Shown here: positions 1,661 to 21,929 of the stretch, piece by piece
How the letters are laid out: every line of letters starts with the position of its first letter
Numbering within the stretch: the first letter of the stretch is position 1
Virus record (IMG/VR): IMGVR_UViG_3300048592_001209
Location: 1 to 25,273 of that record
DNA from: a virus
Length of the DNA stretch: 25,273 bases
Reading direction: 5' to 3' (one strand)
Translations under genes and position numbers: made by a program
The notes under the pieces: model-generated
What the model was told of the DNA's origin: nothing
Seen by the model: the letters and a program-made list of their open reading frames with translations, nothing else
The model's database searches: none

Positions 1661-1691
1661 CTTGACCTGCGGCGTCGGAATGTGTCGCTGT

Positions 1692-1710
1692 GGACAACCC
1701 CGGGTTGTTC
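1692..1710. terminator. Small dyad after the oxidoreductase gene
   Basis: The sequence has dyad symmetry (GGACAACCC, C, GGGTTGTTC), with one G-T mismatch near the outer end, 31 bp after the oxidoreductase stop. It could end that transcript or be a protein-binding site at the prophage boundary. No T-run follows, so a classical intrinsic terminator is not supported. Confidence 0.3.
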
Positions 1711-1740
1711 ACGTGCCATCCACACCACATGTTCCGAAAT

Positions 1741-1953
1741 TCACATGTTTGTCGTCTCGGCCTGCATGAGGGCATCGAGGTCCTCAGTGAGGAAGCGCCG
1801 ATGCGTGCCGCCGGCGAGCCGATAGGCCGGCAGCTTGCCGAGGCTGACCAGTTCGTTCAGCTTGGTAACCGAGACATCTGCGTAGGCGGCGGCTCGGCGA
1901 GTGGAGAGCCACCGTCCGACCTCTTTGGTATCGTTATGGTTCATATCGAGCAC
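1741..1953 (-). CDS. Small helix-turn-helix protein, excisionase/MerR type
   Basis: This 70-residue protein has one recognisable domain, an excisionase-family (MerR-like) winged helix: LSTRRAAAYADVSVTKLNEL followed by a wing-like YRLAGGTHRRF. Such proteins bind attachment-site DNA as recombination directionality factors or act as small regulators. The GTG at 1953 or the ATG at 1944 may be the start. It is divergent from the integrase, with start codons only about 21-30 bp apart, so both promoters must overlap the neighbouring coding sequence. Its position next to the integrase favours excisionase or integrase-control function; that is an inference. Confidence 0.75.
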   Translation of the reverse strand: MLDMNHNDTKEVGRWLSTRRAAAYADVSVTKLNELVSLGKLPAYRLAGGTHRRFLTEDLDALMQAETTNM

Positions 1954-1974
1954 AATTGCACGGTTGTGGTTGTC

Positions 1975-2805
1975 ATGTCAACTACCATCCTGGCCGATGG
2001 TGACCACATGAGCGGGAACCTTGCACGTGAATACGTCGCAGCGATGCGACGTCGGAACCTGGCAGCGGGCACGATCAAGCAGCGCGACTACGTCGTGCGA
2101 GCCTGGCTCGAGTTCGCCGGCGATCGATGGCGCAGCTGCGACCGGCGCCTGGTCGAGGAGTTCCTCGACCAACGGGTGGTGACGGCTGCGACGAGATACA
2201 CGCGCATCGTCCATCTGCACATGTTCTACCGATGGGCGATGCGCGAAGAGTTGTGCCCTGCTGATCCGACGGACCTGATCGAGCGACCTCGGTTGCCGCG
2301 ACGGCTGCCTCGGCCGGCTCGCCGGTCCGACGTCGAGTTCGCCCTCACGGTGCTCAGTGCCGAAACATCCGTCGTGGTCTCGCTGATGTACCACGCTGGC
2401 CTGCGCTGCTGTGAGGTCGTCCGATTGGACTGGCAGGACGTGGATTTCGAGCGCAAGCAGATGATCATCGTCGGCAAGGGCGGCTACCACCGCGTTGCAG
2501 GTATCAACGACCGGCTCAGTGGCGATCTGGCTGGTTCCTGGACCGGCGAGCGATGTGGCCCGGTCATCGGCATCGAGACCTCGGCGAAGGCCCTGTCTGC
2601 TCTGGTGGCCCGCCGGTTGCGATCGATCGGGGTGAACGCGACAGCTCACCAGCTGCGACATCTCCACGCCACGCGACTGCTCGAGGCCACTCGCGACATA
2701 CGGCTCGTGCAGCACGCGCTCGGCCACGCCGACATCAGCAGCACGCAGGGATATGCCGCCTTCAATCCCGCGTTCGCGATCGCTGGCCAGCAGGGCCTCG
2801 AGTAG
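1975..2805 (+). CDS. Tyrosine recombinase (prophage integrase)
   Basis: At about 276 residues it has the usual two domains of the phage integrase/XerD family: an N-terminal SAM-like core-binding domain (starting near REYVAAMRRRNLAAGTIKQR) and a C-terminal catalytic domain. The catalytic residues are visible: Arg in the AGLRCCEVVRLDW segment, Lys in VGKGGYHR, HQLRHLHAT (H-x-x-R), HALGHAD, and the nucleophilic Tyr in STQGYAA. It would carry out site-specific integration and excision. The ATG at 1975 is taken as the start; the ATG at 2008 is also possible, and upstream in-frame codons would run through the divergent HTH gene. There is no arm-binding AP2-type domain, so it may use a simple attachment site. 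Confidence 0.9.
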   Translation: MSTTILADGDHMSGNLAREYVAAMRRRNLAAGTIKQRDYVVRAWLEFAGDRWRSCDRRLVEEFLDQRVVTAATRYTRIVHLHMFYRWAMREELCPADPTDLIERPRLPRRLPRPARRSDVEFALTVLSAETSVVVSLMYHAGLRCCEVVRLDWQDVDFERKQMIIVGKGGYHRVAGINDRLSGDLAGSWTGERCGPVIGIETSAKALSALVARRLRSIGVNATAHQLRHLHATRLLEATRDIRLVQHALGHADISSTQGYAAFNPAFAIAGQQGLE

Positions 2806-8265: not shown

Positions 8266-8679
8266 TCAGGGATCGGCAGTCAGCATCTGCAGCGAGTTCA
8301 CCGGGAACGTCTGCGTCATCTGGCGGGCGCCGTTGACTTCGGTGCCGATCTTGATCTCGGTGACGACGAGGTTCCCGACCCACAACGGGTTGTCTGCGCC
8401 GGTCGCGGCGGTGGAGTACTTCACGGAGAACGGGAGCTGCGCGTCGTCGGTGAGCATCGCGGTCCACAAGGCCCGGTGGATGGTGGCGGCGGCGAGCTCG
8501 TTCTTGCACGTGATCGTGCACGACGTCTTCATCGCGCCGGCTTCGTCGCGTTCCTCGGCGTCGCCGTACGTGGCGGGGATCGTCACCGTGTTCCGGGTGG
8601 GCATGAGGACGAACTCGGTGATCTCGAGGGAGTGGTCGGTGCCGTCGATCTCGACGACGGCTTCGAGCTGTGTGGTCAT
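8266..8679 (-). CDS. Major tail (tube) protein
   Basis: The 137-residue, beta-rich protein shows the pattern of phage tail tube proteins: a compact start (LEAVVEIDGTDHSLEITEFV), a central segment with ATYGDAEERDEAGAMKTSCT, and alternating beta strands to the end (VVTEIKIGTEVNGARQMTQT). It would polymerise as stacked hexameric rings around the tape measure. It lies downstream of the tail terminator gene, as expected. The length is near the lower end for tube proteins, in keeping with the small genome. Confidence 0.75.
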   Translation of the reverse strand: MTTQLEAVVEIDGTDHSLEITEFVLMPTRNTVTIPATYGDAEERDEAGAMKTSCTITCKNELAAATIHRALWTAMLTDDAQLPFSVKYSTAATGADNPLWVGNLVVTEIKIGTEVNGARQMTQTFPVNSLQMLTADP

Positions 8680-8693
8680 GGATGTGTTGCCTT

Positions 8694-9113
8694 TCAGGTG
8701 GTGATGTCGACGGGGAGGTCGACGGACAGCGATGCGATCTCGCCGACGTCGGGGTTGCCGAGCGACGTCGGTGCGGTGACGAGCTCACCGCGGACGTGCA
8801 GATCGGACCAGAACGCCGAGTCGTAGCCTTCGAGGCCGGCGGCGATGCCGGGCCACGACAGCCACCGGTCAAGGGTGCGTTGCGCCTGGTGGGCGTCTTC
8901 GCGTGCCACCTCGAGGGTGAGCGTGATCCGACAGGCTCGTTCCGATGCGTACTGGGCGTGGTAGACGATGGCGGTGGGGGCGCCGACGTGGACGGCGGGC
9001 AGGTTCGGGCCGGGGGCGACACGGTCGTAGACGGCGACACCGGCGAGAACGTCGATGGCGCCGAGCGCGACGGCGAGCTCGCGGCGGATCGCGACGAGGT
9101 CGAGGTCAGCCAA
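8694..9113 (-). CDS. Putative tail terminator protein
   Basis: The 139-residue protein has an N-terminal helix (LDLVAIRRELAVALGAI), a Pro/Gly-rich segment (VAPGPNLPAVHVGAP) and a central beta-helix-beta part with ERACRITLTLEVAREDAHQA, then a C-terminal strand. This arrangement is typical of tail terminator proteins of the lambda gpU / HK97 gp11 fold, which cap the tube at the head-proximal end. Position between the gp6-like connector and the tube gene supports this. The start overlaps the previous gene by 8 bp. Confidence 0.65.
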   Translation of the reverse strand: MADLDLVAIRRELAVALGAIDVLAGVAVYDRVAPGPNLPAVHVGAPTAIVYHAQYASERACRITLTLEVAREDAHQAQRTLDRWLSWPGIAAGLEGYDSAFWSDLHVRGELVTAPTSLGNPDVGEIASLSVDLPVDITT

Positions 9114-9423
9114 AGCGGATCAGCTCCCAACGGGCGAGCAGGGCGTGGATGTCGGGGTCGGACACAGAAACACGCAGCGGGCCCCAGTCGCCGACCGCTT
9201 CGACGCCGTTGGTGGAGTAGCGGCGCCGGTAGAGGCGGGCGGCGTACATGACGGCGGCCTGATTGACGCGGTCCTGGTCGACGTCGACGGCGTCGAGGTC
9301 GTAGAAGTCGCCGAGGGCGCCCACCGCGGCCGCGAACACGCGGTCGAGCAGCTCGGCGTCGACGACGCCGGCTCCGACGTCGAGCCAGGCTTCGACGTCG
9401 TCGGTGGTCGCGGTGACCGCCAC
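9106..9423 (-). CDS. Head-tail connector protein (gp6-like)
   Basis: This 105-residue, mainly helical protein resembles the HK97 gp6 / SPP1 gp15 connector family: a first helix (DDVEAWLDVGA), a second with LLDRVFAAAVGALGDFY, a third with RVNQAAVMYAARLYRRR, then a short YSTNGVEAVGDWG turn and a final helix (DIHALLARWE). Family members form a dodecameric ring under the portal that docks the tail. It sits after the capsid and before the tail terminator, as in HK97-type gene order. Confidence 0.7.
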   Translation of the reverse strand: MAVTATTDDVEAWLDVGAGVVDAELLDRVFAAAVGALGDFYDLDAVDVDQDRVNQAAVMYAARLYRRRYSTNGVEAVGDWGPLRVSVSDPDIHALLARWELIRFG

Positions 9424-9426
9424 CGC

Positions 9427-9759
9427 TCAGCCCTTGCGTCCTCTGCTGGGCCGACCGCGCCCGCCGGCGGGGTCGACACCGGCGGGCAGGGACCGGCGGC
9501 GCAGGATCTCGCGTCGCTGCTCGAGGCGGGCGATCTTGGCGTCGATGCGGGCGATGTTGGTGGCGTCCTGCTTCGCGCGGGTGACGGCCCGGTCCGTCCC
9601 CACCGCGGCCGCTGGCTCTGCGGCGTCGGTGGGGACGGGCACGGGTACGGGGGCGCCGTCCGCCTGGAGCAGCTGCTCGAGGTCGGCTTTGCGGGCGCCC
9701 GCTGGGTAGTCGATGCCGGCGGCGTCGAGCCGGTCCTTGACTTCGGCGACGGTCGCCAT
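9427..9759 (-). CDS. Small SAP/HeH-like domain protein of the head-tail module
   Basis: The ATG at 9759 overlaps the capsid stop as TGATG; a GTG one codon upstream is also possible. The 110-residue protein starts with a short helix-extension-helix unit (TVAEVKDRLDAAGIDYPAGA, then RKADLEQLL), typical of HeH/SAP-like domains found just after capsid genes in actinophages. A Pro/Val/Ala-rich linker follows (GAPVPVPVPTDAAEPAAA), then a helix ending in an Arg/Gly-rich tail. It may bind nucleic acid or decorate or complete the head; the exact role is unknown. Confidence 0.6.
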   Translation of the reverse strand: MATVAEVKDRLDAAGIDYPAGARKADLEQLLQADGAPVPVPVPTDAAEPAAAVGTDRAVTRAKQDATNIARIDAKIARLEQRREILRRRSLPAGVDPAGGRGRPSRGRKG

Positions 9760-11333
9760 CACACGACCTCGGGGACGATCATCCAGAGGCCGCGGGTGTC
9801 GGTGACGCCGTGGGCGCCGAACTGGTAGACGGCGACATCACGAGACAGCGTCGAGGGGACGTCCGCCGTGAGCGTGCCGACCGGGCCGAGGAAGGTGCGG
9901 TAGGCCTCGGAGTGGGCGACGACGGCGGTGTCGGTGTCGAGTTCGGGCTCGATCCGCCACGGCAGGGTGCGGTGCTCGCCGGCGTCGGTGTCGAGACGCA
10001 TCGTGCCCATGTGGTTGAACGCCGACAACGACGGGTAGATCGGGCGGCCGTCGGTGTCTTCGAGGTCGGCGAGGGTCTGCCACAGCGACGTCGACAGCAG
10101 GATGAACGACGGGAACTGCCGCAGCGTGCCGAACATGCCAGCGACGCAGGCGTTGACTGCCTGGTTGAACGTCGCGGTCATCTCGACCTGCTGCGGTGCC
10201 GGGGTGGCGGCGACGACGCCGTCGGCGACGGCTTCGTTGACCTCGAGCGCGAGGGCTTCGAGGTGCAGGCGGTTGACCTCGTTGAGGTACTCCGGCGACG
10301 AGCGCAGCACGGTCTGCAGCGACATGCCTTGGCCGCCGGCGAACGTGTCGAGCTCCCAGGTGACCGGGGTGATGACGACGGCCTGCGATGCGATCTCGGT
10401 GTTCTCGGTCGTCTGCTTGGCGGCGGTCGCCCGGGTCGTCACCTTCGGCTGCTTGACGGAGTCGCCTTCGTCCGGGAGCGGCCGAGACGAGAACATTTCG
10501 ACCGATGGCTGCACCTGGCGTTGCAGGTCGATGATCTCGCGGATCCAGGACTCGTGGACGAGACCGGTCTGCGCTGCGGTCGTCGTCGTGGCGAGGGCAC
10601 GCTGGTAGCGGGCGAGCTCGTCGCCGTCGATCTCGCCCTTCGCGGCGGCGAGAGCGAAGTGACCGAACGACCGGAACCGGCTGCCGGCGCGGGCGCCGCC
10701 GACGGCTGCGCCGGGACGAGGGGCCGAGCGTTGCCGGGAACGCTGCGACGTCGCCGTCGTGGTGTCGGCCGTCGTGTCGTCGGTCGTGGTGTCGTCGACG
10801 TCGTCGGTCGTGGTGTCGTCGACCTGGTCGACGTCGTCGGTGGTGTCGGTGGCGGTGATCATGGTTGCTCCTTCGGTGTTGGATCGGCGGCCGACGATGC
10901 GGGCGCCGGCGTGTTGGGGGTCGGTGGTGAACGCGAAGCGGCGCAGCTGCGCGCCGGATCGTTCGATCGAGGCGCCGGCGGCGACGGGGTGCGGGTCGTC
11001 GTCGAAGTCGATCGACACCGCCTCGTAGATGCCGGCGTCGACGTCGGCGAGGAAGTCACGGCCGGCGGACGACTGCGAGATGCGCACGTCGGCGTAGAGG
11101 CCGTCGTCGCGGTCGTCGACCTGGACGGCGCGGCCCACGATCTTGCCGTCGTGCTCGACTTCGCCGAGCAGACGCTCACCGGCGACGAGCCCGCCGCGCT
11201 TGAACGACTCGGAGTAGAAGTCGCGACCGTTGTCGGTGACCTCGGCGGGTGTGTTCCACGGAACGAGGCAGACGGTGAGGGTGTCACCGTTGACGGTCGG
11301 AGCGGTGGTGCGCAGGTGGCGGGTACGGATCAT
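9759..11333 (-). CDS. Prohead protease - major capsid fusion protein
   Basis: This 524-residue frame joins two phage head proteins. Residues 1-150 are an HK97-type prohead protease (U35): likely catalytic His in LLGEVEHDGKIVGRAV and Ser in IYEAVSIDFDD. Residues about 158-200 are a low-complexity Asp/Thr linker (TTDDVDDTTTDDTTADTTT), then an Arg/Pro-rich patch. Residues about 215-524 are an HK97-fold major capsid protein, with PEYLNEVNRLHLEALALEV and a C-terminal VYQFGAHGVTDTRGLWM. The start has a GGAGG 7 nt upstream and overlaps the portal stop as ATGA. A second ATG at codon 158 has its own AAGGAG, so a free capsid protein of 367 residues may also be made. Confidence 0.85.
   Translation of the reverse strand: MIRTRHLRTTAPTVNGDTLTVCLVPWNTPAEVTDNGRDFYSESFKRGGLVAGERLLGEVEHDGKIVGRAVQVDDRDDGLYADVRISQSSAGRDFLADVDAGIYEAVSIDFDDDPHPVAAGASIERSGAQLRRFAFTTDPQHAGARIVGRRSNTEGATMITATDTTDDVDQVDDTTTDDVDDTTTDDTTADTTTATSQRSRQRSAPRPGAAVGGARAGSRFRSFGHFALAAAKGEIDGDELARYQRALATTTTAAQTGLVHESWIREIIDLQRQVQPSVEMFSSRPLPDEGDSVKQPKVTTRATAAKQTTENTEIASQAVVITPVTWELDTFAGGQGMSLQTVLRSSPEYLNEVNRLHLEALALEVNEAVADGVVAATPAPQQVEMTATFNQAVNACVAGMFGTLRQFPSFILLSTSLWQTLADLEDTDGRPIYPSLSAFNHMGTMRLDTDAGEHRTLPWRIEPELDTDTAVVAHSEAYRTFLGPVGTLTADVPSTLSRDVAVYQFGAHGVTDTRGLWMIVPEVV
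10777..10823. repeat. Two 24-bp tandem repeats in the capsid linker
   Basis: Two adjacent copies (10777-10800 and 10801-10823) of a TCG/GTC-rich unit encode the Asp/Thr-rich linker between protease and capsid. The period is a multiple of three, so the repeat can change linker length without shifting the frame. Confidence 0.7.
10860..10873 (-). promoter_or_regulatory. Internal ribosome-binding site and ATG for free capsid protein
   Basis: On the minus strand AAGGAG (10873-10868) lies 5 nt before an in-frame ATG at 10862, exactly at the junction between the protease domain and the Asp/Thr linker. It is among the strongest Shine-Dalgarno matches in the phage operon. It would yield a 367-residue linker-capsid protein besides the full-length fusion. 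Confidence 0.65.
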
Positions 11334-12355
11334 GCGACGGCCTCCAGGCGTGGCATCGGGGCGACGACGTCGGGCATGCCGCCGGCGTCGGTCGGCGACA
11401 CGAGCCGGAACATGACGTCGGTGTCCATCGTGACTTCGACGCCGGCGAGCTCGGACCAGAAGTCCTCGAGGCGGGCGATCCAGGTCGGCACCAGCGAGAA
11501 CGACAACCAGCGGGCGATCTCGCCATGCACGTTCGAGTAGGTCATCGACCCGTTCGACTTGGCATTCGCGAGCGACGGTGGCGCGTTGACGAGACGGGCG
11601 ACCTCAGATGCGCACTGCTCGAGGATCCGCCCGATCGCTTCCATCTCGCCGTTGTTCGCCGGGACCTGCAGCTCCCAGCCGGCCGGGAGCACCGCGGGGC
11701 GGCGTTCCTTGCGGGCTTCGACCCAGTCCTCGGCGGCCTCGGCCGGTGAGTAGACGGTGTTGCCGGGCCCGGTGCGGCGCAGCACCGTGGACGGGTTGCC
11801 GCCACCGGCGAAGAACATCGACAGGTACGAGTAGGCGTAGCCGTACATCGTGAGCGGCTCGGACGCCATCGACAGCGGCGACCGGCCGATCGCACCGTAG
11901 CGCGGGTCGTCGTTGATCTTGAACCAATGGATCTGGTCCTTCGCGACGATCTCGCCGTCGTAGTACCAGAACGGCACGTTCAACGGGTCGTCCGGGTCGA
12001 AGCCCGGGCCAACACGGTTCGGGTCGAGCACGGTGATCGCGTCACGGCGCCGCGATGGCATCACGAACGCGTTGCCGGTCCACCACGCGGACTGGACCAG
12101 CTTGTGCACGGTGCTGTGGCGGGACTCGTCAGGGTTCGGACGGCGGATCACCTCCGGCGTCGTGCCGCGGCCGCCGGTCACCAGTGGCATCGCGGCGAGG
12201 ACGTCGGCGTGCAGGTTCGCGAGACCGACCGCCACCGGCAGCTCCCGGACGGGTATCGGGGCGCCGGCGACGCGTGCAGCGCCGAGTGCTACGATCACCT
12301 CGGTGACGAGGCTGACGTCGGAACGGGTGCGGCGCTGCCGGCGGCGGTCGAACAT
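11330..12355 (-). CDS. Portal protein (HK97 family)
   Basis: The 341-residue protein matches the HK97 phage portal family: the clip/stem region contains VHKLVQSAWWTGNAFVMPSR and WYYDGEIVAKDQIHWFKIND, followed by the conserved GAIGRSPLSMASEPLTMYGY and SMFFAGGGNPSTVLRR, and a C-terminal NAPPSLANAKSNGSMTYSNV. Portals form the dodecameric ring for DNA entry and the packaging motor. The protein is shorter than HK97 portal (about 420 residues), in line with a small capsid. It begins close to the divergent HTH gene, so a new promoter may start here. The stop overlaps the protease-capsid start. Confidence 0.88.
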   Translation of the reverse strand: MFDRRRQRRTRSDVSLVTEVIVALGAARVAGAPIPVRELPVAVGLANLHADVLAAMPLVTGGRGTTPEVIRRPNPDESRHSTVHKLVQSAWWTGNAFVMPSRRRDAITVLDPNRVGPGFDPDDPLNVPFWYYDGEIVAKDQIHWFKINDDPRYGAIGRSPLSMASEPLTMYGYAYSYLSMFFAGGGNPSTVLRRTGPGNTVYSPAEAAEDWVEARKERRPAVLPAGWELQVPANNGEMEAIGRILEQCASEVARLVNAPPSLANAKSNGSMTYSNVHGEIARWLSFSLVPTWIARLEDFWSELAGVEVTMDTDVMFRLVSPTDAGGMPDVVAPMPRLEAVA

Positions 12356-12400: not shown

Positions 12401-12587
12401 CCCTGATCACCACCGCGCGTCTCTGATGAGCGATGAGCAGGTCGCCGAGCTGCTCGGCGTGTCTCGCGGGACGGTGCGCCGATGGCGCTACGACGGGGAC
12501 CTTCCCTACGTGCGCCTCGGCCGAAACCTGGTGAGGATCTCCCGCGACGACGTCGACGAGCTCGTCGCCTCCCGGCGCGTCACGTGA
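12393..12587 (+). CDS. Small HTH protein inserted between portal and terminase (opposite strand)
   Basis: The GTG at 12393 gives 64 residues; an ATG at 12426 is also possible. The protein is a single helix-turn-helix of the excisionase/MerR type: MSDEQVAELLGVSRGTVRRW, then a wing-like LPYVRLGRNLVRISRDDVDE. It is the only rightward gene inside the leftward structural operon and overlaps the terminase 3' end by 8 bp, tail to tail. No CI-type repressor is visible elsewhere, so this or the HTH gene next to the integrase may be the lysogeny regulator or excisionase. Its exact job is unknown. Confidence 0.75.
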   Translation: MTVPDHHRASLMSDEQVAELLGVSRGTVRRWRYDGDLPYVRLGRNLVRISRDDVDELVASRRVT

Positions 12588-14127
12588 TGCGGTCGATGCG
12601 GGCGCCGGCGGGGAACAGGCGCCGGTAGTGGCCGAGCGCCCACGTGGCGGCCTGGATCGGGTCGAGGGGCACGTCGGCGGCGCGTTGATCGAACGCCCGG
12701 GCGCCGCCGAGGGGCCGCCACCGCGACCCTGCGGCCGCGGTGTTCAGGTCGGGCTGGTCCTGATGGGCGAAGCTGCGTTGCTCGAGCTCGTCGACGAGGG
12801 TGCCGCAGTGGCCGCCGACGTCGACGCCGGAGAGCTCGTCGACGGCGAGGCCGCGGCCGGCGGCGCGGTCGATGATGCCGCCGGCGCCGGCGGAACGGTC
12901 GGCGACGATCGCGACGGAGTGGCGGGCGGTGAGCTGCTCGAGGACGTCGACGACCCAGCCGGTGCCGGGACGTCGATCGACGACGACGCCGACGCGACCG
13001 TCGGGGAGGCCGCCGGCGACCGCGACGGAGGTGTGCGAGCGGGTCGGGTGGATGTGCACACCGGTGACGAACGGCGCCGTGATGGGCAGGTCGACGTCGG
13101 CGTCGCCGGCGGCTTCGGTCCACAGGTCCATGTCGATCGCCGAGGACTGGGCGATCGTCGGGCGCCGGCACAGCCACGCACGGTCGAAGTCGGCGTTGGT
13201 CATCGACGTCCGATAGGACCGGATCCGTTCCACGGTGATGGTGGTGCCGAGCGCCGGCATGCATTGCGCCCACACGGCGGGGTCGTCGCCGTCGGCGTCG
13301 TCGTCGGCTGACCACTCGAACAGGGCGATGCGGGCGTCGGGGTCGTTGATCGCGGCGAGGCCGACGTCCTGGTAGTGCAGCAGTAGGCCGTCGTCGCCTT
13401 CGCCGACGGTGGACACGATCGTCAACTGCGGATCGGCGCGGGTCGCCATCGTCGGCTGGATCGACGCGATCACGGAGGTGTCGGCGTAGACGAACGCTTC
13501 GTCGAGGACGCCGTCGTCGACGGTCTTGCCGTCGGCCATCGAGTCGTTCGACGGCACGATGAAGATCCTCGAGCCGAGCCCGGCGCCGGCGGTCCAGCGG
13601 ATGTGTGCGGAGCCGTTCGAGCGGCGTGGTTTGGTGCGAGGCCCGAAGTAGGGGTGGCGGGCGAGGTCACGGTCGTACCACTCGTCGATCAGTTTCTCGC
13701 GGGCCTTGTCGGCGTTCTGGGCGGCGTAGATCAGCTGACGCCACGGTGCGATCTCCGCCGAGCGGGCGAGCTTCGCGACGATGTAGGTCGTCTTGCCGTT
13801 CTGGCGCGGGATGATGATGACGATCAGGTCGTACCAGAGCAGCCCGGTCGCCGGGTCGAGCTCGTGGGCGACGTCGGCGATGAACCGCTGATGCGGCATG
13901 AAGTAGTCGCCACCGGTGAGCAGGAAGTGGTAGTCCTCGACGAGGCCGCCGACCGTCGGGCGTTCAAGGTTCCGTTCGGTCGTGAATCTTGGCGGACATC
14001 GCAGCGAAGAACTCGTCAACGGTGGTTGCGTCGATCTCAGCTCGGACGGGCGCCAGATCGCGGCGGATCGCTTGGAGCTGGCGGGCGGTGTTGATCTTGC
14101 CGTAGCGGTCGCCTTCGGCTTCGGCAC
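12580..14127 (-). CDS. Terminase large subunit
   Basis: The protein has the ATPase and nuclease arrangement of phage terminases. Walker A is IIPRQNGKTTYIVAK, Walker B is DDGVLDEAFVYA, and the coupling motif is TIVSTVGEG. The C-terminal RNase H-like nuclease domain has acidic residues in VTGVHIHPTR, VAIVADRSAGAGG and near the end. It cuts concatemeric DNA and drives it into the prohead through the portal. The GTG at 14127 has a GGGAG 7 nt upstream but overlaps the small terminase gene by 164 bp, and the first 50 residues look like low-complexity shadow coding. A TTG at 14019 is an alternative start without a good Shine-Dalgarno. Confidence 0.9.
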   Translation of the reverse strand: MPKPKATATARSTPPASSKRSAAIWRPSELRSTQPPLTSSSLRCPPRFTTERNLERPTVGGLVEDYHFLLTGGDYFMPHQRFIADVAHELDPATGLLWYDLIVIIIPRQNGKTTYIVAKLARSAEIAPWRQLIYAAQNADKAREKLIDEWYDRDLARHPYFGPRTKPRRSNGSAHIRWTAGAGLGSRIFIVPSNDSMADGKTVDDGVLDEAFVYADTSVIASIQPTMATRADPQLTIVSTVGEGDDGLLLHYQDVGLAAINDPDARIALFEWSADDDADGDDPAVWAQCMPALGTTITVERIRSYRTSMTNADFDRAWLCRRPTIAQSSAIDMDLWTEAAGDADVDLPITAPFVTGVHIHPTRSHTSVAVAGGLPDGRVGVVVDRRPGTGWVVDVLEQLTARHSVAIVADRSAGAGGIIDRAAGRGLAVDELSGVDVGGHCGTLVDELEQRSFAHQDQPDLNTAAAGSRWRPLGGARAFDQRAADVPLDPIQAATWALGHYRRLFPAGARIDRIT

Positions 14128-14396: not shown

Positions 14397-14717
14397 TCAC
14401 CGTTCCGGGGGAGAGAGAGACGCCGAATGCGGGGTCCACTGTGGGCCGCCCCCTCCAAAAACTGTGTGACGCCGCCGAGCCCGCGCCCGGCGGGTCCGAT
14501 CCGCGGCCCCGCGCCTCGAGTTGCACCGGGTGCACGAGGCGACCAGGTTGTCCAGGGTCGTCGGGCCACCCTCGCAACGTGGGATCGGCCAGTGATCCGA
14601 CGTCGACGCCCGACCACCGCACCACCTGCAGATGTACCGGTCGCGTTCGAGGACCTGGAGACGCAGCCGGCGGTGCAGGCTCCCGTACCCGCGGCGGGCC
14701 GCGGACAGCTTGCTCAC
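14397..14717 (-). CDS. HNH endonuclease (packaging-associated)
   Basis: The GTG at 14717 overlaps the previous stop as GTGA and gives 106 residues. The HNH motif is clear: LQVLERDRYICRWCGG, then STSDHWPIPRCEGG with the catalytic His, LDNLVASCTRCNSRRG with the Asn and the second Cys pair. HNH proteins next to terminases are known partners of the packaging machine in HK97-like phages, where they help the terminase cut cos ends. The gene order HNH, small terminase, large terminase supports that role here rather than a free-standing homing endonuclease. Confidence 0.88.
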   Translation of the reverse strand: MSKLSAARRGYGSLHRRLRLQVLERDRYICRWCGGRASTSDHWPIPRCEGGPTTLDNLVASCTRCNSRRGAADRTRRARARRRHTVFGGGGPQWTPHSASLSPPER

Positions 14718-14908
14718 AGCGCCGCCCGGACCGCAGCGTCTTTCGCCTCGAGCAGCTTGCGCAACGCCACCGTCAGCTCGGCACCGTCGAGGCCGCCCGC
14801 GGCGAGGGCGTGAGCGAGCTCGCAGAACGGGCGGGACACAGCGGCCAGGTGCTCGGGCAGGTGCTCGTGTTCGAAGTAGCGCAGGATAGCAGCAGTCGAC
14901 GGGTGCAT
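14714..14908 (-). CDS. 64-residue helical-hairpin protein, candidate Acb2/Tad1-type signal sponge
   Basis: The ATG at 14908 follows a GGGG a few nt upstream. The protein is nearly all helix: PSTAAILRYFEHEHLPEHLA, VSRPFCELAHALA, then ELTVALRKLLEAKDAAVRAA. The phrase HLP-x5-VS-x-PF-x2-LA followed by a final LRKLLEAKDAAVRA helix recurs in small actinophage proteins and resembles, by memory, the Acb2/Tad1 hairpin domain. Those proteins sequester cyclic nucleotides or gcADPR and so block CBASS or Thoeris defence. This is a family guess without a search. The gene is coupled to the HNH gene by a 4-bp overlap. Without the homology it would be a plain hypothetical early protein. Confidence 0.6.
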   Translation of the reverse strand: MHPSTAAILRYFEHEHLPEHLAAVSRPFCELAHALAAGGLDGAELTVALRKLLEAKDAAVRAAL

Positions 14909-14997
14909 GTCCCCGATCGTACGTTCCCGATGCCACACCAGAGGCGAATGGGCGGCTGTGTGGGCCCGTAGCGGCTCGCACACCCCGTTCTGTGGTG

Positions 14998-15231
14998 TCA
15001 GGGTGCGGGCGGGGTCGTGTTCGCGTCGGAGACGTCCACGGGGGGGCCGGTGATCCGCCAACGCAGCTCGGCCGGCAGGGGCAGCTGTTCGGGTTGGCGG
15101 CGCCGGAACCGGTACGACGCGAGATACATCGCCCACGCCCGCCGGCACGACCGGCACCGGCACGGATCACGACGCAGCCGGTACCGGCGCGTCGTGCCAT
15201 GCGGCGGATCCGGCAACGGCGGACGTGGCAT
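14998..15231 (-). CDS. Small basic Cys-rich phage protein
   Basis: The ATG at 15231 overlaps the previous stop (TGATG), giving 77 residues. A short C-x-C-x2-C cluster lies in LRRDPCRCRSCRRAWAMYL, surrounded by many Arg residues, followed by YRFRRRQPEQ and a Pro-rich tail. The cluster could bind a metal ion and the basic face nucleic acid. No known family is recognised. A gap of 89 bp follows before the Acb2-like gene, the longest gap in the early region, and may hold a regulatory signal. Confidence 0.6.
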   Translation of the reverse strand: MPRPPLPDPPHGTTRRYRLRRDPCRCRSCRRAWAMYLASYRFRRRQPEQLPLPAELRWRITGPPVDVSDANTTPPAP

Positions 15232-17857: not shown

Positions 17858-17884
17858 TTGACACGGGTGACAAGGATGTAGTTT
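17858..17884 (+). promoter_or_regulatory. Possible nrdJ promoter
   Basis: TTGACA (17858-17863) is followed after 15 bp by TAGTTT (17879-17884), then by the ribosome-binding site GGAGG (17904-17908) 7 nt before the nrdJ ATG. The spacing is short. The rest of 17673-17857 shows no gene and no convincing cobalamin riboswitch; it should also contain the right prophage end. Confidence 0.35.
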
Positions 17885-17915
17885 GGATCGCCTCTCGACC
17901 CCCGGAGGTTCGCCC

Positions 17916-20900
17916 ATGTCAATCGCACTCGACCGCACCGCTGACGGCACGATCGGACTCGGGCGCCTGTTCACGTCAGCCGGCGTCGACCCGTACGCCG
18001 AGGTCGTGTGGGAGCGACGCGATGCACGTCTCACGAACTGGCTCGACGGGTCGGTGGCGTTCGAACAGCTCGGCGTCGAGTTCCCGAGCACATGGTCGCT
18101 CAACGCGACGAACATCGTCACGCAGAAGTACTTCCGCGGCACGCTCGGCACGCCTGAACGTGAGTGGTCGCTCAAGCAGGTCGTCGACCGCATCGTCGAC
18201 ACGATCACCGACTGGGGCGTCGCCGACGGCTACTTCGACGGCGACGAGGCCGAGGCGTTCCGCGCCGAACTGAAGTACATCATGATCACCCAGCGAGCGG
18301 CGTTCAACAGTCCGGTGTGGTTCAACATCGGCGTGCAGGGGGTGCCGCAGCAGGCGAGCGCATGTTTCATCCTGGCCGTCGACGACGAGATGCCGTCGAT
18401 TCTCAACTGGTACCGCGAGGAGGGCCTGATCTTCAAGGGAGGATCCGGTGCCGGGGTGAACCTGTCGCGGATCCGATCGTCCTTGGAGCCGCTCGACGGC
18501 GGCGGTACCGCATCGGGTCCGGTCAGCTTCATGCGCGGCGCCGATGCGTCGGCGGGCACGATCAAGTCGGGTGGCAAGACCCGTCGAGCGGCCAAGATGG
18601 TCATTCTCGACGCCGCCCATCCCGACATCGAGCAGTTCGTGTGGACCAAGGCGATCGAGGAGCGCAAGGCGCGTGTGCTCGCTGAGGCCGGCTTCGACAT
18701 GGGACTCGACGGTGCCGATTCGTTCTCGGTCCAGTACCAGAACGCCAACAACTCGGTCCGGGTCACCGACGAGTTCATGCAGGCCGTCGTCGACGATGCG
18801 GATTGGGACCTCACGGCGGTGACCACCGGCGAGGTGCTGCGCACGGTGAAGGCCCGTCAGCTGTGGCGCGAGATCGCCGAGGCGGCGTGGGAGTGCGCCG
18901 ATCCTGGCCTGCAGTTCGACACCACGATCAACCGCTGGCACACCGCCCCCAACCACGGCCGGATCACCGCCAGCAACCCGTGTTTCACCGCCGACTCACT
19001 CGTTCACACCGACAAGGGATTGATCCGGTTCGACGAGCTCTTCGCCCGCGCCAATGTCGGCGAAGAGTTCCAGGTGTGGACTCACGACGTCACCAACGTC
19101 GATGCTCCGGCACAGCTTGTGCACCTGACGACTCCAGATGCATTCATGATCACCGGCAGGAACCCGGTCCAGCGTCTCCGATTCAGCAACGGGATGGAAC
19201 TGCGCTGTACCCCGTCGCACCGGATCTTCACACTCAATCGCGGCTACGTCGAGGCTGACGAGCTGACCGCCGACGATCGCGTCCGCTCGCTCGACCTCCC
19301 GACGCCCCCGACCAATGCAGACTGGGCCGTGCCCATCCGGACCGACTGGGAACACTATCGGGAGAAGGGTGATCGGGATCGTCCATTGCTGCTCCCCGAT
19401 GTCTGGAACGACACCTTTGCCCACTACGTCGGATGGCTGGTCGGTGATGGATCGACGTCGGGCACGTCGACGGTGACGATCTATGGCTCCGCGGACGACC
19501 GCACGGAGATCCTCTCGGCACACCACGAGTTGCTCGAAGGCATCAACGCCGGTCGGCCGATCAAGTTGAGTGAGCAGGCAAACGGCACCGTGCAGTTGCG
19601 GCTCACCCGGCGCCCGCTGAAGCGCTTCTTCGAGGCGTTGGGCGTCGGGTCGGTCACCGGTGAGCACAAGACGGTCCCTTGGGCGATCGAACAGGCGCCG
19701 CCGGAGATCGTCGCCGCGTTCCTTCGCGGGCTCTTCGACGCCGACGGGTGTGCCGTGTACAACCCCGAGAAAGGTTCCTACGTCGGTCTCGGCTCGATCT
19801 CCGTCGAACTGCTTCGCGGCGTGCAACGGCTTCTGTCAACATTCGGCATCTCGTCGAAGATGTACAACGTTCGGCGCCCGGGTGCAACGAGCTTCAGCTA
19901 CGAGCGCAAGGATGGCTCGGTGGCGGACTACGTGTCCAAGGCGTCGTTCGACCTGCGGATCACCGGCGCGAGTATGCACACCTTCGCTTCGGCCATCGGA
20001 TTCTCGCTCTCACGCAAGGCCGAAGTCCTCCGAGACGCCGTCATCGGTCACGAGACCTATGATGTCGACACGTCGATCCGGCTCGTCGACCGTCTCGACG
20101 AAGGCATCGAACTCACCTACAACCTGTCCGAACCGCGCAACCACTCGTACGTTGTCAACGGTGTCGTGGTGCGCAACTGCAGCGAGTATTTCCACGTCGA
20201 CAACAGCGCGTGCAATCTCGCGTCGATCAACCTGCTGAAGTATCTGCAAGACGATGGTGGCTTCGACGTCGGAGCGTTCACCCACACCGTCGACACCGTC
20301 TTCACCGCCCAGGAGATCCTGGTCGGACGAGCCGACTACCCGACCGAGAAGATCGGCGACACGACCCGTGCGTTGCGCCAGCTCGGCCTCGGCTACGCGA
20401 ACCTCGGTGCGCTGCTGATGGCACTCGGCCTGCCCTACGACTCCGACGACGGTCGAGCATGGGCGGCGGCGATCACGTCGCTGATGACCGGCTCCGCCTA
20501 CGCTGCCAGCGCTCGCACCGCAGCAGCCGTCGGCCCCTTCGACGGGTTCGCCGACGAGTCCGATGCCATGCTTCGCGTCCTCGAGATGCACCAGCAGGCC
20601 AACGATCGCCTGGCCGAGAACCCGGCGCTGCCCGACGACCTGGTCGGCGCGGCTGCCGACGCGTGGGGGCGCGCGATCAGCGACGCCCACCGCCACGGCG
20701 TCCGCAACAGCCAAGCGACCGTCCTGGCGCCCACGGGGACCATCGGGCTCGCCATGGACTGCGACACGACGGGCATCGAGCCGGACCTCGCGCTGGTCAA
20801 GACGAAGAAGCTCGTCGGTGGCGGCACGATGTCGATCGTCAACCAGACCATCCCCCGAGCGCTGCGCCGCCTCGGCTACACCCCCGAGCAGGTCGACGAC

Positions 20901-21929
20901 ATCGTGGCCTACATCGACGAGCACATGTCCGTGCTCGGCGCACCGCACCTGGCGCCCGAGCACCTGCCGGTGTTCGCCTGCTCGATGGGCGACAACACCA
21001 TCCACTACGAGGGCCACATCCGCATGATGGGTGCTGTCCAGCCGTTCCTGAGCGGCGGCATCTCGAAGACTGCGAACATGCCCGAGGACGTCACCGTCGA
21101 AGACGTCGAGGGGCTGCACATGCTGGCCTGGGAACTCGGGTTGAAGTCGGTGGCGATCTATCGCGACAACTGCAAGCTCGGCCAGCCGCTGTCGTCGACG
21201 AAGGGTCGAGCGAGCGATGCTGCCGCCGAGCTCGCGGCGCCTGCTGCGGTCGAGGCCGGCGTGCAGCAGGTGATCGAACGCATCATCCACCAGCCGGTTC
21301 GTCAGAAGATGCCGCGGACCCGACGTGGCCGTACGTTCGAGTTCCGGGTGGCGGACTGCAAGGGCTTCGCCACGATCGGCGAGTACGACAACGGCCAGCC
21401 GGGTGAGATCTTCCTGACGGTGTCGAAGCAGGGATCCACCATGGCCGGGGTGATGGATGCCTTCGCGAAGTCCGTGTCGTACGGCTTGCAGTACGGGGTG
21501 CCCCTGCGGGCGTTCGTCGAGGCGTTCACGAACATGCGTTTCGAGCCCGCCGGCATGACCGACGATCCCGACATCCGGTTTGCATCGTCGATCATGGACT
21601 ACCTGTTCCGACGCCTTGCGATCGAGTACATGACCTACGACGAGCGCGCCGAACTCGCCATCTTCTCGGTCGACGAACGACTCCAGCCGACCTTGCCGGG
21701 CGTCGAGGAGGCCGTGACCGAAACCAGCCAGGGCTCCGACATGGCGCCCGATCCGAAGTCGTCCGACTCCGGTCATCTGGCGTCTGCGCCAGCGGCGGAC
21801 GAGACGCTGGCACGCGACCGGGTCCGGCCGAACGATGCGCCGATGTGCATGCAGTGCGGTGTCACGATGACGCGATCGGGGAGCTGCTATGTCTGTACGT
21901 CGTGCGGGAGCACCAGCGGCTGCAGCTGA
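17916..21929 (+). CDS. nrdJ: B12-dependent (class II) ribonucleoside-diphosphate reductase, intein-containing precursor
   Basis: The ATG at 17916 has GGAGG 7 nt upstream and gives a 1337-residue precursor, or about 938 residues after splicing. The enzyme reduces ribonucleotides to deoxyribonucleotides using adenosylcobalamin to make a thiyl radical. Recognisable parts are AAFNSPVWFNIGVQG and SGAGVNLSRIRSSLEPLDGG in the N-terminal region, the active-site NPCSE split by the intein, SACNLASINLLKY after it, NSQATVLAPTGTIGLAMDCD, and a C-terminal zinc motif (MCMQCGVTMTRSG, VCTSCGSTSGCS) typical of NrdJ. It is a chromosomal gene directly right of the prophage. The only anomaly is the intein. Confidence 0.95.
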   Translation: MSIALDRTADGTIGLGRLFTSAGVDPYAEVVWERRDARLTNWLDGSVAFEQLGVEFPSTWSLNATNIVTQKYFRGTLGTPEREWSLKQVVDRIVDTITDWGVADGYFDGDEAEAFRAELKYIMITQRAAFNSPVWFNIGVQGVPQQASACFILAVDDEMPSILNWYREEGLIFKGGSGAGVNLSRIRSSLEPLDGGGTASGPVSFMRGADASAGTIKSGGKTRRAAKMVILDAAHPDIEQFVWTKAIEERKARVLAEAGFDMGLDGADSFSVQYQNANNSVRVTDEFMQAVVDDADWDLTAVTTGEVLRTVKARQLWREIAEAAWECADPGLQFDTTINRWHTAPNHGRITASNPCFTADSLVHTDKGLIRFDELFARANVGEEFQVWTHDVTNVDAPAQLVHLTTPDAFMITGRNPVQRLRFSNGMELRCTPSHRIFTLNRGYVEADELTADDRVRSLDLPTPPTNADWAVPIRTDWEHYREKGDRDRPLLLPDVWNDTFAHYVGWLVGDGSTSGTSTVTIYGSADDRTEILSAHHELLEGINAGRPIKLSEQANGTVQLRLTRRPLKRFFEALGVGSVTGEHKTVPWAIEQAPPEIVAAFLRGLFDADGCAVYNPEKGSYVGLGSISVELLRGVQRLLSTFGISSKMYNVRRPGATSFSYERKDGSVADYVSKASFDLRITGASMHTFASAIGFSLSRKAEVLRDAVIGHETYDVDTSIRLVDRLDEGIELTYNLSEPRNHSYVVNGVVVRNCSEYFHVDNSACNLASINLLKYLQDDGGFDVGAFTHTVDTVFTAQEILVGRADYPTEKIGDTTRALRQLGLGYANLGALLMALGLPYDSDDGRAWAAAITSLMTGSAYAASARTAAAVGPFDGFADESDAMLRVLEMHQQANDRLAENPALPDDLVGAAADAWGRAISDAHRHGVRNSQATVLAPTGTIGLAMDCDTTGIEPDLALVKTKKLVGGGTMSIVNQTIPRALRRLGYTPEQVDDIVAYIDEHMSVLGAPHLAPEHLPVFACSMGDNTIHYEGHIRMMGAVQPFLSGGISKTANMPEDVTVEDVEGLHMLAWELGLKSVAIYRDNCKLGQPLSSTKGRASDAAAELAAPAAVEAGVQQVIERIIHQPVRQKMPRTRRGRTFEFRVADCKGFATIGEYDNGQPGEIFLTVSKQGSTMAGVMDAFAKSVSYGLQYGVPLRAFVEAFTNMRFEPAGMTDDPDIRFASSIMDYLFRRLAIEYMTYDERAELAIFSVDERLQPTLPGVEEAVTETSQGSDMAPDPKSSDSGHLASAPAADETLARDRVRPNDAPMCMQCGVTMTRSGSCYVCTSCGSTSGCS
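18981..20177 (+). mobile_element. NrdJ intein with LAGLIDADG homing endonuclease
   Basis: The 399-residue intein occupies precursor residues 356-754. It starts with Cys1 (CFTADSLVHTDKGLIRFDEL, block A), has block B with MELRCTPSHRIF, two LAGLIDADG endonuclease motifs (HYVGWLVGDGSTS near 19424-19450 and AFLRGLFDADG near 19719-19748, both with their acidic residue), block F (EPRNHSYVVNG) and ends VVVRN before Cys+1. Splicing should excise it and join SNP to CSEYF. The penultimate residue is Arg instead of the usual His. The endonuclease looks intact, so homing may still be possible. Confidence 0.93.

Follow-up and report, generated by a model that had tools for sequence, protein, structure and literature searches.

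In phage HK97, the prohead protease gp4 and the capsid protein gp5 are encoded by adjacent separate genes, each with its own stop and start, and belong to the same protease and delta-capsid families as the proteins considered here. In the lambda C/Nu3 system, a second assembly protein, which lacks the protease, is translated from an in-frame start within the protease gene; this internal product is the scaffold alone, as opposed to the capsid protein proposed below for a prophage gene. The Gifsy-2 system employs a ClpP-type protease, which is not homologous to the U35 type.

Fusion of the protease to the capsid protein is itself already known, with examples in PHROG 2263, Microbacterium cluster EE, Arthrobacter cluster AN, RRH1, PAJU2, and Gifsy-2. 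Fused protease-capsid genes have been reported in the Arthrobacter clusters AM, AU, and AN as well as in RRH1 (PMC5513430), and a gene of small-genome actinophages has been described as a protease-scaffold-capsid fusion (PMC7302621). The record of Pseudomonas phage PAJU2 annotates ORF003 as 'prohead protease fused capsid protein', and for Gifsy-2 the title of Effantin et al. 2010, as cited in PMC8814770, indicates a tripartite capsid gene, whose protease is of the ClpP type. No description of an internal start in these fusion genes was found in the open-access literature, which is weak evidence of novelty. An annotation such as 'major capsid and protease fusion', taken as one protein, would imply a protease on each capsid subunit; if most fusions have a working second start, this one-protein annotation is wrong for many phage records.

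In this article, a fusion gene is analysed in a window consisting of 25,273 nt of the virus record IMGVR_UViG_3300048592_001209. The gene and most of its relatives in two compared families keep a start at the domain junction, which probably allows free and protease-tagged capsid protein to come from one message.

The Fused Gene and Its Domains

An earlier sequence-only reading of this DNA had proposed that a protease and a capsid protein are fused in one frame, and sequence comparison confirmed this: in the frame from 11333 to 9759, a prohead protease is followed by a capsid protein, both of the HK97 type (Table 1). Its 524 codons are free of stops, HMMs of the protease half and of the capsid half both match it, and the PHROG head-protein family phrog_2263 (551 positions) covers both halves. 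The protease half matched NCBIfam TIGR01543 over residues 59-152 with 20.5 bits, below the cut-off of 59, and no Pfam match was obtained for the protease domain of the fusion; H61 and S107, which we take to be the catalytic His and Ser of the HK97 prohead protease (U35), are invariant over 22 aligned fusions. The capsid half matched NCBIfam TIGR01554 over residues 163-438 with 52.1 bits, above the cut-off of 27.5, and Pfam Phage_capsid, aligned to residues 258-437, fell slightly below its cut-off. A sequence search of solved structures gave no relative except remote capsids, and these for the PAJU2 type only.

Residues 158-198 form a linker in which 13 Asp and 16 Thr account for most of the 41 positions. 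The earlier suggestion that this linker replaces the HK97 delta domain may hold: the position fits, though the stretch is encoded by a 24-bp tandem repeat.

Table 1. Features of the fusion gene and its neighbourhood in the window
Feature	Position	Strand	Evidence
Major tail protein	8266..8679	-	phrog_4574, E=3e-7
Head-tail connector	9106..9423	-	phrog_5938, E=3.9e-20
Fused protease-capsid gene, 524 aa	9759..11333	-	Open frame; phrog_2263 residues 19-520, E=1e-46
HK97-type major capsid core, about residues 221-524	9762..10673	-	TIGR01554 163-438; Pfam Phage_capsid 258-437
Asp/Thr-rich linker coding stretch of ~24-bp tandem repeat	10746..10848	-	
In-frame ATG (M158), proposed start of free 367-aa capsid protein	10860..10862	-	Same-junction start in relatives
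HK97-type prohead protease domain, residues 1-157 with His61 and Ser107	10863..11333	-	TIGR01543 sub-threshold; invariant His/Ser columns
Internal Shine-Dalgarno AAGGAG	10868..10873	-	Read directly
Portal protein	11330..12355	-	Pfam Phage_portal, 80.7 bits; stop overlaps first ATG of fusion (ATGA)
Terminase large subunit	12580..14127	-	phrog_9, E=2.7e-45

The Prophage and Its Surroundings

The portal and terminase genes lie upstream of the fusion and the connector, terminator, and major tail genes downstream, so that the order terminase, portal, fusion, connector, terminator, major tail equals that of the Curtobacterium phage Barebow and of cluster EE. Directly downstream of the fusion, a small gene (9427-9762, minus strand) encodes an N-terminal HeH/LEM-like motif (helix-extension-helix), whose Pfam HeH match of 23.9 bits is below the cut-off of 28.9. 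Upstream of the terminase genes is an HNH endonuclease gene (14397-15200, minus strand), a usual neighbour of the packaging module, and residues 179-237 of its product resemble the HNH of IscB. In Barebow, a gene annotated as a cyclic nucleotide sequestering protein (L003:3104-3373) stands between portal and fusion.

At the left end, an Xer-like tyrosine integrase gene (1690-2805, plus strand) is accompanied on the opposite strand by a small excisionase-like gene (1741-1953, minus strand). The prophage would span only about 15-16 kb, placing it in the small-siphovirus class, yet it would be temperate. A search of the window for prophage attachment repeats gave only an unconvincing 14-bp match. 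The flanking host gene for NrdJ, the B12-dependent ribonucleotide reductase (17883-21929, plus strand), is 83% identical to that of an Ilumatobacteraceae MAG; its product carries an inserted segment at about residues 368-764 which, with matches to intein-bearing proteins and the LAGLIDADG-like motif GLFDADG, is considered an intein.

The Internal Start and Its Conservation

The junction of the window gene reads AAGGAG, CAACC, and ATG, a 5-nt spacing that leaves 367 residues, exactly as the sequence-only reading had described it. The pattern AAGGAGN5ATG occurs once in the window against 0.06 expected, and 28% of synonymous shuffles of this gene alone yield an equally strong Shine-Dalgarno (SD) sequence at M158, which is not beyond chance. 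Since the window's own SD is thus not significant given the peptide, the case rests on relatives.

When the fusion or the portal served as a single query sequence, scans of viral and genome contigs gave no relatives, and a scan with the terminase gave one weak match. Relatives were reached through the window's host-like NrdJ gene and its match in the Ilumatobacteraceae MAG, followed by a search of the class Acidimicrobiia; a phrog_2263 search of the phylum returned mostly split or partial genes. The nearest fused relatives of the window gene are only 20-29% identical to it. An in-frame junction ATG with an SD-like sequence was present in each of the eight fusions examined initially, among them Barebow, five EE phages, and PAJU2. 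In Acidimicrobiia, to which the genome nearest to the window's flank belongs, three fusions carry the junction start, namely AGGGAGGATCCCACAATG (L039), AAGGAGCACCGCCCATG (L043), and CAGGAGATGCAGCAATG (L046, which ends at the contig end). An SD and ATG at the junction also occur in Salmonella phage SP-016, Rhizobium phage RHph_X2_26, and Escherichia phage JLK-2012, and among remote fusions in RRH1 (GAAGGAACCCCAGCC-ATG at M274, 388 residues remaining) and Maggie (AGGAAAGAGGCAGTA-ATG at M160, 368 residues remaining).

Two profile-alignment scans of viral contigs produced 161 fused frames, equal to 91 clusters at 80% identity, of which 41 are of the actinobacterial type and 50 of the PAJU2 type; the junction position in each was set by a protease-domain anchor. 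Conservation of the internal SD among relatives had been named earlier as a check, and a junction start codon with an SD duplex of -4 kcal/mol or stronger was present in 82 of the 91 clusters (ATG 71, GTG 8, TTG 3), a count that takes the best start per junction and thereby flatters the case. A clear SD is absent from the junction in the other 9. The SD core occurs in codon phases 0, 1, and 2, and this, together with the alternation of ATG, GTG, and TTG, indicates that a DNA signal rather than a peptide is conserved. The junction GTG and TTG codons of the PAJU2 type show, as a class, no SD enrichment. Five fusion clusters (L134, L137, L143, L146, and L151), partly from one metagenome, have a junction ATG with a weak or absent SD, and their hosts may initiate translation without SD.

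An unselected comparison, in which every junction ATG was set against every other ATG of the same genes, gave an SD of -5 kcal/mol or stronger at 24/39 junction versus 42/238 other ATGs in the actinobacterial type (Fisher p 4e-8) and at 42/55 versus 124/629 in the PAJU2 type (Fisher p 2e-17), p-values that overstate the number of independent observations because the clusters share ancestry. With a threshold of -7, an ATG with SD was found at 41 of the 91 junctions and in 31 of 729 equal-sized windows elsewhere in the genes, and protein-preserving synonymous shuffles led to an expectation of 26.4 +- 2.9 junctions, with a maximum of 34.

Split Relatives and Alternative Explanations

The PAJU2 type also includes relatives in which the two proteins have separate genes. 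The capsid gene of these split forms opens with M..xAEQI (SOVA965, L190, L195, L199, and others), and the codon at which it starts is the one that encodes the internal Met in fusions. In L195, L198, and L199, a single stop codon just upstream of the capsid start parts protease and capsid within one frame; the junction of L195, whose sister L191 is a fusion, reads AAAAGGACA-TAG-ATC-ATG. When mapped onto a tree built from 60 capsid sequences, the split state requires 6 changes, and supported branches force at least 5 of them. Since this start must supply the capsid protein in the split forms, the simplest reading is that it also works in the fused sisters, which have the same site. The idea of an internal start for free capsid protein, advanced in the sequence-only reading together with the condition that homologous fusions lacking a conserved start would refute it, is therefore supported both by the conservation of this start in fusions and by its identity to the capsid start of split relatives, although an intact internal start is by itself no proof of use.

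An alternative explanation is that translation gives the full-length fusion alone, so that each capsid copy starts out with a protease, which later removes itself by cleavage, and that the internal start is left over from a formerly separate capsid gene. This would agree with the general knowledge that HK97-type proteases self-process, with the equally good SD of the upstream start (-9.3 kcal/mol), and with the recent origin that the fusion could have in some lineages. A relic would be expected to decay, yet fusions that are 20-30% identical keep the start despite divergent linkers, start codons, and SD phase, and synonymous shuffles do not reproduce the group-wide SD strength; this explanation is accordingly considered unlikely.

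It is highly improbable that the Met and the purine-rich codons before it (R-E-D, K-E-G) are kept for the protein, as a cleavage site or helix start, with the SD arising by accident. The peptides do favour an SD, and shuffles alone produce one of -5 kcal/mol or stronger before an ATG in 52 of the 91 genes, but the observed 68/91 lies above all 60 shuffles, the largest of which reached 62. Moreover, the upstream peptides vary widely (EGAT, REDP, KGNNT, RKESR, PEGSA), and junctions without ATG often carry GTG or TTG with an SD. That an error of assembly or sequencing joined a protease gene and a capsid gene that are separate in the real prophage is barely credible: the window is a single virus record without a close relative for comparison, but independent fusions exist in cultured phages (Barebow, cluster EE, Maggie, RRH1, PAJU2) and in an Acidimicrobiia genome (L039), and the actinobacterial fusions have the window's gene order.

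Proposed Mechanism

Dual initiation in the fusion genes is thus strongly supported by comparative evidence, and the preferred reading, to which a probability of roughly 0.8 is assigned, is that one frame would give two products, the fusion and free capsid protein, which co-assemble and are later cleaved. Ribosomes starting at 11333, where the start overlaps the portal stop, would make the protease-linker-capsid fusion, and those starting at the internal ATG (10862) would produce just the capsid protein. Fusion and free capsid protein would co-assemble through their identical capsid parts, and the procapsid would bear the protease on the fused subunits only. After assembly, the protease would cleave within the stretch that precedes the capsid core, thereby freeing itself and trimming fused and free subunits to one mature form. 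Of this reading, the sequences show the frame, the domains, the conserved internal start, and, in the PAJU2 type, the equivalence of this start to that of the split capsid gene; we infer that both proteins are made, that they assemble together and are cleaved, and their stoichiometry.

According to the sequence-only reading, translation initiation sets the ratio of fusion to free capsid. This would follow if both starts work, while the ratio itself is unreadable from the sequence: the SD strengths of the upstream and internal starts of the window gene are similar (-9.3 versus -8.0 kcal/mol), and the medians of first and internal starts are close in both fusion groups. If most fusions carry a working second start, the way in which they set protease copy number can be approached by direct experiment in very small phages that can be cultured, for example those of cluster EE.

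In a broader form, for which the chances seem slightly better than even, dual initiation would be a general, selected rule of protease-capsid fusion genes: fusion would persist because the internal start maintains the supply of free capsid protein, the fused fraction would put protease into every procapsid without separate recruitment, and the ClpP-type fusions such as Gifsy-2 would have reached this design independently. In Gifsy-2, GAGGAGTTTGAGCAT-ATG follows the protease domain at M221, and in its relative, Pseudomonas phage CF79a, AGGAGTTCGCCCAC-ATG is found at M300 of the open frame. A junction start combined with an unrelated protease is a lead, coming from two related sequences that each contain other SD-like ATGs.

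Comparison with Known Systems

The window gene has the feature that marks nested dual-start genes of the lambda C/Nu3 kind, a conserved in-frame SD start at the domain junction. Among fusion systems, the small-genome actinophages (Microbacterium EE, Arthrobacter AN, Rhodococcus RRH1, and Curtobacterium Barebow) resemble it in having both domains in one frame, and they share its gene order and internal junction start. However, their fusions are only 20-25% identical to that of the window and have a short helical-looking segment where the window gene has the D/T tandem-repeat linker, and the window, unlike these systems, contains a temperate prophage adjoining Ilumatobacteraceae-like genes. PAJU2 ORF003 and its relatives likewise combine a U35-type protease with an HK97-type capsid and an SD-ATG at the capsid start. 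They differ from the window in the longer scaffold-like segment between this start and the capsid core and in the portal gene, which lies downstream of the fusion instead of upstream, and the PAJU2 family includes split forms as well as fusions.
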